A program made the position numbers and the translations under genes. Shown piece by piece: positions 583-3,297 of a stretch of 36,144 bases of DNA (positions within the stretch are counted from its first letter, which is position 1; each line of letters opens with the position of its first letter). The notes beneath the pieces are model-generated. The model was not told where the DNA came from and did not search any database. It saw only the letters and a list, made by a program, of their open reading frames with translations. Origin of the DNA: Bacteroidota bacterium (GTDB lineage: Bacteria > Bacteroidota > Rhodothermia > Rhodothermales > UBA10348); NCBI GenBank assembly GCA_027622005.1, contig JAQBZH010000001.1, forward strand, positions 88,329 through 124,472, given 5' to 3'.

Positions 583-1209
583 CTACTTTCTGTTTTTATG
601 GTAAGTCATTATTTCGATCATTCGCTTTTCCATACGATCTAGTTCGAATAGAGGTGCGCCATATTTACGGCTCGCACTCACTAACACATTCTTTAAGATC
701 CGGTCGTGAATTGGAATTTGGGTTGGACGGGCTCTCTTGCTCACCAAATCTACCAAAACTGTCAGTATTTGCCATCGAAGTAAAACGAATCCGATCACCC
801 CGCTTCCGACGGCTGCCATTTGACCGGAACTCGCGAAATAACTCATAGCCATCACGAACAAAAGCCCCTGGACAATCGGGTGATTCATAAAACGAATCGG
901 ACCAACCAGGCCATAAACCACCACGTTTGGCGCTAAAAAAGACATCACCAGAAAAAGAAAGAAAGAAACGAGCACAGCCGGAATCGGAGAAAGAATCAAC
1001 AATAAACAAGGAAGAGCCCAAACGGTGAGGGTAACAGGGAGTCGACTCCAATCTCCAGCTTTTTGAAATAACGTCTGCAAGCCCAATTTTTTGATGATAT
1101 CAGGCGAATAGGATTCCAGATCCCGAACCGTAGTGTGATACCAGATGCCATCTGATGTAAAAATACCTCCAGGCATTTCAACAAAGGTGAGCGGCGCGGA
1201 CTTAATCAT
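583..1209 (-). CDS. Membrane protein of unknown function
   Basis: This is a 208-residue protein starting at an ATG (MIKSAPL) that overlaps the stop of the YbbR-like gene by 8 bases, so the two are probably translationally coupled. I do not recognise the family. A polar N-terminal part of about 60 residues is followed by roughly four hydrophobic segments between residues 60 and 150. A basic C-terminal tail of about 55 residues is probably cytoplasmic. A longer frame extends upstream to 1344, but it runs inside the YbbR-like gene, so the 1209 start is preferred. Its position between a YbbR/CdaR-like gene and menF suggests a housekeeping envelope protein, but no function can be assigned. Confidence 0.7.
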   Translation of the reverse strand: MIKSAPLTFVEMPGGIFTSDGIWYHTTVRDLESYSPDIIKKLGLQTLFQKAGDWSRLPVTLTVWALPCLLLILSPIPAVLVSFFLFLVMSFLAPNVVVYGLVGPIRFMNHPIVQGLLFVMAMSYFASSGQMAAVGSGVIGFVLLRWQILTVLVDLVSKRARPTQIPIHDRILKNVLVSASRKYGAPLFELDRMEKRMIEIMTYHKNRK

Positions 1210-2182
1210 TCCGAATATCGTAATACCGGAGTCCGATCGGATTGATTTTGATCTCCCGAATTTCAAGACCGTTGGGCGTGTGGACCATGGGATAGACGAG
1301 TCCTTTTTCATCTCGGCTGGTATCCGAATACGGCACGAAAACATAAAAATCTTCGTCGCTCAGCGAGGCATCATATTGAGAGAGAGGAATTTGATAAGTC
1401 AATTCTACTTTGGAGGGTACAAACGATACGTTCGCGCCTTCCGCCAGTCCAATGGCTCGTACTTCGACCGTGCGGGTAGCCTCGGTAAACTGCTGTATGT
1501 CGCCTCGGACTAGAACTTTGGTGACATCAAAATTAATCAAACCAGCCAGGGAGTCCGAAACGGCAATCATGGCCTCCAAGGAATCGCTCAGCTCACCTAG
1601 ACGGCGCTTTTGGGTTTTCCACTTCGTAATTCCGAAAACGATAGATGCTGCGCCTGAAACGGTGATGGAATCCGGGACAATCGATACGTTTCCGATCAAG
1701 CCAAATCCCGGGGACAAACCAACTGAAACGGCTGATTCAATGGGTATTTTTCGATACACCCGATCTTCGATTGAAATCTGAGCAGTTCGCGGGGTCACCG
1801 TTTGCAAGCTAACATTCTTGATCACTTCAGCGGCAACGACAAGCATGTCCACTTCGCCTTCGATGGGTACGATCGGGATGGTGGGTAGTTTATAGAGTAA
1901 GCGAAGAACCTGAACCCCTTCGCCTTCAACCTGAATACGAATGGAGGTGGGTGGTAAGACGGACAGGGCTTTATCTGGCGCCAAATTCAGTATTTCGGTC
2001 GGAAAATCAATGACTTGGGTGTACGTCTCTTGCAAAGAGAACGCAAACCACAATATGGATGCGGCCAAAATGCACATAGAAATAACGAACCCTTTGTTCT
2101 CCGGCTCTCGAGAATCGAACCGCGCACCCGATCGAATCGGGGAAAACAACGCCCGGAATTTTTGAGTGATGGATCGTCTCAT
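1202..2182 (-). CDS. YbbR-domain (CdaR-like) membrane-anchored protein
   Basis: This 326-residue protein has a basic N-terminus, a single membrane segment at about residues 30-50, and a long extracytoplasmic part made of beta-rich repeats typical of YbbR domains (for example PTSIRIQVEGEG and PDSITVSGAAS). In Firmicutes the YbbR protein CdaR regulates the diadenylate cyclase CdaA that makes c-di-AMP. Members in Bacteroidota usually have one anchor and several YbbR repeats, as here. No cdaA gene is next to it in this window, so a c-di-AMP role is inference from the family. It starts 23 bases after the stop of the tailed BMC-H gene and overlaps the next gene by 8 bases, so it is probably read through from the shell genes. 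Confidence 0.75.
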   Translation of the reverse strand: MRRSITQKFRALFSPIRSGARFDSREPENKGFVISMCILAASILWFAFSLQETYTQVIDFPTEILNLAPDKALSVLPPTSIRIQVEGEGVQVLRLLYKLPTIPIVPIEGEVDMLVVAAEVIKNVSLQTVTPRTAQISIEDRVYRKIPIESAVSVGLSPGFGLIGNVSIVPDSITVSGAASIVFGITKWKTQKRRLGELSDSLEAMIAVSDSLAGLINFDVTKVLVRGDIQQFTEATRTVEVRAIGLAEGANVSFVPSKVELTYQIPLSQYDASLSDEDFYVFVPYSDTSRDEKGLVYPMVHTPNGLEIREIKINPIGLRYYDIRND

Positions 2183-2205: not shown

Positions 2206-2775
2206 CTACCTGAGATTCCTAAGCGCGTCGACTAGCTGCGTTTTACTAGCGCGGGCTATTTCTCTTCCTTGAATGGGTAGGTTGTCAAAAGTTCGGGCCA
2301 GCGATCGAAGCTCTCGAACCGTCATATCTTCCAAAGGACTATTAGCGGGAGCGGCTTTGGGCGTCTTTGCGGCGGCCTTTTTGGGGGCGGCCTTTGCGGG
2401 GACTTTTGCGGGGGCTTGTTTTGCGGGGGCGGCCTTTTTGACGGCAGCCTTGGTCGCGGTCGCTATTTTCACTTTAGGGGTCGGAGACGCCTTTTTGCCT
2501 GACTGCATCGCGCGCACATCGTCCGAAGGGCGTGCTATGACATGCGACGTTACCACTTGGCCAATTTTCTTCGCTGCCGCCGTTCCCGCTTCCACGGCGG
2601 CTTGAACAGCTGCTGTATCACCAGCAATTTGAACGGTGATCATAGCCGCATCCGTACGCTCCATCGCAACCAGCGATACCTGAGCTGTCTTCAGCATGGC
2701 ATCTGCTGCTTCAATTGCAGCTATCAGTCCGCGGGTTTCAACAAAACCCATTGCTTCATGCATGGCTTGAGCCAT
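2206..2775 (-). CDS. BMC-H shell protein with Lys/Ala/Pro linker and C-terminal Rho_N/SAP-like domain
   Basis: Residues 1-90 form a complete BMC-H domain ([20 protein letters not shown], then HVIARPSDDV) of the kind that makes the hexagonal tiles of bacterial microcompartments. The edge lysine in ADAMLK and the arginine in ARP, which pack hexamers side by side, are both kept. The central pore loop reads TDAA in place of the usual glycine-rich KIGGG/KIGSG. Residues 91-147 are a low-complexity linker of Lys, Ala and Pro resembling the tail of histone H1 or of mycobacterial HU. Residues 148-189 (MTVRELRSLA, then REIARASKTQLVDALR) resemble a Rho N-terminal/SAP-type helical domain, a fold often linked to nucleic-acid binding. 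Most BMC-H proteins have about 90-100 residues; this one has 189. It follows the other BMC-H gene after 86 bases. The BMC call is firm; the tail function is inference. Confidence 0.88.
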   Translation of the reverse strand: MAQAMHEAMGFVETRGLIAAIEAADAMLKTAQVSLVAMERTDAAMITVQIAGDTAAVQAAVEAGTAAAKKIGQVVTSHVIARPSDDVRAMQSGKKASPTPKVKIATATKAAVKKAAPAKQAPAKVPAKAAPKKAAAKTPKAAPANSPLEDMTVRELRSLARTFDNLPIQGREIARASKTQLVDALRNLR

Positions 2776-2861: not shown

Positions 2862-3155
2862 TTAGCCATCCAATCCGGAGGGCAATATGGATTCTACGTC
2901 TGAGTGTGGACGTGGGATAACGTGCACCGAGACTAGCTCCCCAACCCGTTCGGCTGCGGCGGCTCCGGCATCGGTAGCGGCTTTAACGGCACCAACATCT
3001 CCACGCACCATCACCGTTACATACCCGCCACCAATTTTCTCTTTGCCAATCAAATGTACTTTTGCGGCTTTGACCATGGCATCGGCGGCTTCTATTGCAC
3101 CAACCAATCCTTTAGTCTCGATCATTCCAAGAGCGATTCCGTAATCTTCTGCCAT
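2862..3155 (-). CDS. BMC-H shell protein, PduA/CsoS1-like
   Basis: This is a 97-residue single-domain BMC-H protein, the normal family length. It is very close in pattern to PduA-type hexamers: [19 protein letters not shown] near the start, the pore loop [23 protein letters not shown] in the middle, and [15 protein letters not shown] at the end. The edge lysine (AMVK) and the PRP arginine that tile hexamers are present. ATG 3155 is preferred because it gives the standard N-terminus; a TTG at 3197 would add 14 residues not seen in the family. It is the first gene after the promoter at 3268-3297 and precedes the tailed BMC-H gene. No BMC-P (EutN/CcmL) gene, BMC-T gene, aldehyde dehydrogenase or signature enzyme occurs anywhere in the window, so the compartment type cannot be named. 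Confidence 0.93.
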
Positions 3156-3267: not shown

Positions 3268-3297
3268 AATATAGACCTAGTCATACCCGTTTGTCAA
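3268..3297 (-). promoter_or_regulatory. Promoter for the BMC-H operon
   Basis: On the minus strand, TTGACA (plus-strand 3292-3297) is followed after 18 bases by TATATT (3268-3273). The same arrangement, TTGACT-N18-TATATT, lies ahead of the tRNA-Val gene in this window, which supports its use by the main sigma factor. It lies about 110 bases upstream of the ATG at 3155. Confidence 0.6.

Follow-up and report, generated by a model that had tools for sequence, protein, structure and literature searches.

The window analysed here is a stretch of 36,144 nucleotides from a member of the Bacteroidota (GenBank assembly GCA_027622005.1, contig JAQBZH010000001.1, positions 88,329 to 124,472 of the forward strand), and it carries, in tandem on the minus strand, two genes for BMC-H shell proteins of a bacterial microcompartment (BMC), one of them plain and the other extended by a long C-terminal tail. 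The features of the locus are the following.

2206..2775, minus strand: gene for the tail-bearing BMC-H shell protein, 189 aa, ATG start (open reading frame, Pfam, orthologues).
2527..2754, minus strand: BMC domain PF00936, residues 8-83, without the facet motif (P/A)RPH (Pfam E 2.2e-24, motif count).
2335..2505, minus strand: K/A/P-rich linker, residues 91-147, net charge about +13 (linker lengths and charges).
2371..2437, no strand given: 15-bp tandem repeat, 4.7 copies, within the linker (repeat search of the sequence).
2209..2334, minus strand: C-terminal SAP/Rho_N-like module, residues 148-189, 42 residues (profiles, predicted fold, conservation).
2862..3155, minus strand: plain "basal" BMC-H paralogue, 97 aa from a conserved ATG (open reading frame, Pfam, orthologues, tandem pair in relatives).
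3268..3297, minus strand: promoter-like site TTGACA-18-TATATT, 11/12 match, upstream of the BMC-H pair (pattern only).
1202..2182, minus strand: YbbR/CdaR-like gene directly downstream (syntenic in 12/13 loci; the L044 orthologue matches YbbR at 30.5 bits).
583..1344, minus strand: conserved protein without known family (syntenic in 11/13 loci).

The reading frame at 2206..2775 is intact and its translation agrees with the initial annotation, which had read it as a BMC-H domain followed by a K/A/P-rich linker and a C-terminal module. The protein is built exactly so, with a PF00936 match (E 2e-24) that scores 85.6 bits against a curated cut-off of 24.5, and the interval 2206-2505 singled out in that annotation comprises the linker together with the module. 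The plain BMC-H, which is close to EutM/CsoS1, lies directly upstream in the same direction, and this tandem arrangement of the plain gene followed by the long one is found in most relatives with BMC genes (38/60 sampled). The promoter-like site upstream of the pair is of a kind whose number in the pattern search is not above chance expectation. Beyond the pair and its two downstream genes, 9 of the 13 loci (e.g. L035:8751-16711) continue with menF and menD, and menH, an enoyl-CoA-hydratase-like gene and a UbiA-like gene occur further along in fewer of them.

The module is complete in 36 of the 37 aligned orthologues from the same order, the remaining one (L007) being cut by the end of its contig, and it is present in 40 loci or genomes elsewhere in the phylum, in 39 of which it stands in frame with a BMC domain. 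In the fortieth (G250), the N-terminal part has diverged and is weakly similar by profile to the BMC domain (E 5e-4, prob 31); here (L136:1058-1693, minus strand) the BMC domain joined to the module is strongly diverged and may be degenerate, and no BMC gene is recognisable in the genome. A profile of the module gives a single match in the source genome (E 3e-24) and, over 394 genomes of the phylum, is found in 76, with one copy each; BMC domains occur in 79 of the 394, and the two co-occur in 74. Across the order the 42 C-terminal residues conform to a single consensus, LExMTVRELRALARxxxxLPIQGREIARANKxQLLxAL, behind linkers that differ in every species. V153, R157, R161, G170, R171 and L181 do not vary among the 76 modules; all of these have K or R at position 178 and 91% have one of the two at position 175, and the loop signature GRE-I-(A/S)-R-A-N-K is near-invariant. 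Mean identity within the order is 59% for the module and 66% for the BMC domain, compared with 48-52% and 59-61%, respectively, beyond the order. The net charge of the module averages +2.5 over the 76, some members being neutral or slightly negative (-3). Where the initial annotation had allowed for a random tail in orthologues as the contrary outcome, every intact orthologue examined, phylum-wide, carries the module, which is a real and conserved feature and more than a product of chance. In a plasmid search with the protein, the matches were all to BMC-H without the tail (44 records, covering no more than 49% of the query among the matches listed).

In contrast to the module, the linker is free to vary in both length and charge. 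That of the source protein is the longest (63 aa by the linker measure) and the most basic (+13) among the 36 measured in the order, and the linker of a congener (L035) is far shorter. Other linkers overall range from 14 to 267 aa with charges down to -86, those of the wider phylum spanning 30-267 aa and -86 to +11 and being clearly acidic in 22/39. The H1-like basic linker is a repeat expansion in the source species and is not conserved, so that its description as a general, histone-H1-like feature does not survive comparison with the relatives; the six basic tails that the initial annotation had envisaged on each hexamer are likewise a species trait at most, because the relatives' linkers vary and so many are acidic. 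These acidic linkers also rule out the basic linker as the working part. Given that linker length and charge vary freely while the module is conserved, the conserved working part is the module, held on a free tether. A second motif, TIERLRxEALG, which resembles an encapsulation helix, is present in 12 of the 39 distant linkers (loci L110, L121, L124, L129, L135, L140 and six others), where it precedes the module by 21-70 residues, the pattern having been written after the motif had been seen. A K/A/P-rich, H1-like stretch is also found in a BMC-H of Kineosphaera limosa (L036:7752-8267), there N-terminal to the BMC domain in the open frame as read from a putative start, and is possibly a convergent basic tail.

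The hexamer that bears the tail is of a distinct kind. The facet motif (P/A)RPH is present in 3 of 76 tail-bearing proteins and in 37 of 38 "plain" paralogues, one of these 38 (L046) being itself tail-bearing, and the source tail-bearing protein has ARPS at this site. Hence the loss of RPH marks a specialised hexamer and, by the terminology of Sutter et al. (PMC8217296) and as judged from these sequences, the basal facet hexamer is the plain protein, whereas the protein with the tail is the specialised form. The same loss could be taken to mean that the tail acts in assembly or regulation with no nucleic acid involved, limiting the packing of hexamers or linking neighbouring shells, with its fold as a convenient helical knob. 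We regard this as very improbable, since it leaves unexplained the conservation of charged arginines throughout the phylum while the linker drifts freely.

By profile and by predicted fold, the module belongs with the SAP/Rho_N-type domains. In hhalign comparisons with profiles made from sequences of the same phylum, it matches SAP with a probability of 95 (E 2.9e-8, score 35.5) and Rho_N with a probability of 90 (E 1.8e-6, score 29.3), and chance resemblance is ruled out by column-shuffled null profiles, which score at most 14.7 against the true 29-35. With matches counted at E up to 5, Pfam finds Rho_N in 31 and SAP in 27 of 36 same-order modules (best E 1.2e-5); in the wider set Rho_N is found in 17 of 38. 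In the source protein both stay below their gathering scores, SAP (PF02037) with 10.6 bits for the whole protein and 17.5 for the module alone against a cut-off of 23.9, and Rho_N (PF07498) with 15.4 bits for the module against 24.9. AlphaFold predicts a SAP topology for the module alone (pLDDT 88.6) and, for the full protein, helices at 153-162, 171-175 and 178-186 (pLDDT 80-88 there), in a run from a two-sequence alignment in which the BMC domain is poorly predicted. The structural neighbours of the predicted module are E. coli Rho 2-42 (Z 5.0), the SAP domains of Tho1 (Z 4.1) and FAN1 (Z 3.6) and TAF1 992-1034, with Foldseek E-values that are not significant by themselves (best 1.3); structural scores as modest as these are to be expected of a module of ~40 residues. 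A search of the PDB by sequence profile gave nothing meaningful. The module shares with SAP and Rho_N domains the order helix, loop, short helix, helix, and differs from them in a loop ~5-7 residues longer, which bears the conserved signature. The helical SAP/Rho_N-type end that the initial annotation had proposed, against the contrary case of no helical domain, is therefore borne out by AlphaFold, Pfam and profile comparison.

The A/P/K linker and a LARE...GR pattern also prompted a comparison with the peripheral-subunit-binding domain (PSBD, PF02817), a binder of enzyme subunits that is carried on linkers of this kind. This candidate is ruled out, as hhalign gives a probability of 0.3 against a set of E2-type sequences from the same order.

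The genome contains only two BMC-domain genes, both BMC-H (C83); its three BMC-P genes lie at two separate sites (C93 and C40), and the same counts are found in most BMC-bearing relatives. In gene content this compartment, with two BMC-H and three BMC-P in three loci without neighbouring BMC enzymes, fits the FRAG type. This type is widespread among lineages related to the Bacteroidota and, to our knowledge, has been assigned neither a function nor a positioning mechanism. It has been described as enigmatic and reported from Ignavibacteriae and relatives (PMC8217296). Like the source, FRAG BMCs have shell genes scattered over three loci, a BMC-P triplet and no enzyme in the BMC-H locus; their catalogue (PMC8217296) notes extended BMC-H in general, and no SAP/Rho_N shell-protein domain was found in the text searched. 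A Planctomycete-type (PVM) compartment, considered from the count of 2 BMC-H and 3 BMC-P, was dropped because the shell genes are scattered over several loci and have no PVM enzyme cluster next to them.

The BMC-P tandem pair (L037:5234-7041, G000:C93) lies directly downstream of the phosphopentomutase gene deoB, with PCMT and cdaA (diadenylate cyclase) alongside; since cdaA adjoins this pair and the YbbR/CdaR-like gene adjoins the BMC-H pair, c-di-AMP-related genes flank both shell loci. Of 29 loci from relatives, 23 retain the link between deoB and BMC-P; all of these belong to the source's own family, and loci outside it lack the link. The genome also encodes two extended enzymes: a true DeoC (L216:1240-2178), whose added N-terminal part bears the helix-like EEKRKIIERLQNRYQ, and an acetylating acetaldehyde dehydrogenase (AldDh; L214:640-2310, minus strand), which is prolonged at the C-terminus by ~110 aa with the helix-like end DPIDVEQLVAKYRKP. 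From these extensions both enzymes are likely to be cargo with encapsulation helices. Taken together, the deoB link and the extended DeoC and AldDh make plausible a deoxyribose-phosphate pathway of the kind proposed for SPU-type compartments, which are thought to use DNA breakdown products (PMC8217296), and they provide a first testable substrate hypothesis for the FRAG BMC of the source. SPU compartments are characterized by DeoC and RpiB clustered with the shell genes, and the DeoC gene is here at C18, unlinked.

If the compartment degrades deoxynucleosides, the tail might serve to keep DNA or RNA for degradation, or nucleases, near the shell. The position of deoB, the two extended enzymes and the SPU precedent would all suit such a role, but the enzymes lie outside the BMC-H locus, the deoB link is missing beyond the source's own family, cytosolic catabolism begins with nucleosides and not with polymers, and the module is also present in distant families that have no known cargo. 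We consider substrate capture of this sort improbable.

For the role of the tail, we compared the protein with known C-terminally extended shell proteins. In Salmonella, loss of EutK leaves Eut BMCs polar and static, the authors suggesting nucleic-acid binding and a ParB-like role (PMC12487888), and loss of PduK leaves Pdu BMCs polar, the authors placing its C-terminal extension on the concave, outward-facing side (PMC9132943). Both EutK and the source protein have a single BMC domain and a C-terminal extension that ends in a small, proposed nucleic-acid-binding domain, but the end domain of EutK is PF16365 (PMC12058022), whereas that of the source is SAP/Rho_N-like. Because Pfam gives no match to PF16365 at E up to 5 in the 36 same-order and 38 wider-set modules (0/74), the end domain is a different one from EutK's, as the initial annotation had held. 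The source protein also falls short of the NCBIfam EutK equivalog cut-off (79.5 bits against 218, with a match that stops at residue 112), and it differs from EutK in that its relatives' linkers reach 267 aa and its BMC loci hold no Eut enzymes. PduK, too, is a BMC-H with a C-terminal extension, and its role is in distribution within the cell (PMC9132943), but it ends in a Cys-rich, probable Fe-S motif (PMC12058022) in place of a SAP/Rho_N-like fold. A further parallel comes from the one-protein tethers of PHB and polyphosphate granules, which have DNA-binding tails: PhaF, PhaM and AlgP attach to the organelle through one end and to DNA through the other, and PhaF and PhaM bind the nucleoid through histone-like domains (PMC13052382). 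The K/A/P linker of the source resembles the tails of PhaF, PhaM and AlgP, a resemblance for which we claim no homology; these proteins have no BMC domain, and in the BMC-H group the basic linker is confined to a few species. The text searched yielded no literature on SAP or Rho termination-factor domains with microcompartments, and within the literature searched the SAP/Rho_N-like domain is a new end domain for a known kind of shell protein, the C-terminally extended BMC-H exemplified by EutK and PduK.

A conserved module on a free linker looks like a tether, and we propose that the source protein forms a specialised, minor BMC-H hexamer whose nucleic-acid-binding module is exposed to the cytosol, and that it positions the compartment in the manner of EutK and PduK, a proposal that we judge to be evenly poised. 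The BMC domain would insert the protein as a minor subunit into the facets of a FRAG-type compartment (one plain BMC-H, the tail-bearing BMC-H and three BMC-P), with the C-terminus leaving the hexamer on the concave face, here taken as cytosolic. From there a probably disordered linker of free length and composition would present the 42-residue SAP/Rho_N-fold module to nucleic acid, most likely the DNA of the nucleoid, which it would bind without sequence specificity through a candidate patch of R157, R161, R171, R175 and K178. Through numerous weak contacts on each shell, the compartments would then be spread over the nucleoid and divided between daughter cells, in a tethering analogous to that suggested by EutK and PduK for Eut and Pdu compartments and by PhaF and PhaM for PHB granules. 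It is the deletion phenotypes of EutK and PduK in Salmonella (PMC12487888, PMC9132943) that make nucleic-acid binding and partitioning plausible here.

Several features weigh against a tether to nucleic acid. The net charge of the module is modest, reaching neutral or -3 in some members, and many linkers are strongly acidic, which is unfavourable to an approach to DNA. The GRE-I-(A/S)-R-A-N-K loop, moreover, is conserved beyond the needs of non-specific DNA tethering, and a specific protein partner would fit it equally well. Domains of the SAP/Rho_N fold can also bind proteins. This excess of conservation in the loop makes a protein partner the main rival explanation: the module would bind a conserved partner, whether a positioning protein of the ParA kind, a cargo enzyme or the encapsulation helix of such an enzyme, much as EutQ or the N-terminus of PduB bridges shell and cargo. 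In addition to the EutQ precedent from Eut BMCs (PMC12487888) and the almost invariant GREI(A/S)RANK sequence, such an adaptor would account for a module that is dedicated to BMCs and present once per genome, for cargo candidates with long helix-bearing extensions (the C-terminus of the acetylating AldDh and the N-terminus of DeoC) and for the TIERLRxEALG motif, like the helix of an encapsulation peptide, in 12/39 linkers of the wider set. Against it, the profile and fold relatives of the module are nucleic-acid-binding families, the PSBD gives no match, the C-terminus lies on the concave face, which the PduK authors take to point outward (PMC9132943), and linkers of up to 267 aa with a charge of -86 would crowd the lumen. 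On balance we think an adaptor for a protein partner unlikely, though a serious contender.

Should the module act as a nucleoid tether, its distribution would point to a phylum-wide class of microcompartments with a one-component tether built into the shell, whose positioning is not McdAB-based and whose domain is distinct from those of EutK and PduK, a view that we put forward tentatively and with slightly less than even confidence. A conserved module from a nucleic-acid-binding fold provides a testable handle on the placement and inheritance of such protein organelles. Seen alongside EutK and PduK, the module suggests that BMC-H proteins with C-terminal extensions are a general class of positioning adaptors that have evolved with different end domains.
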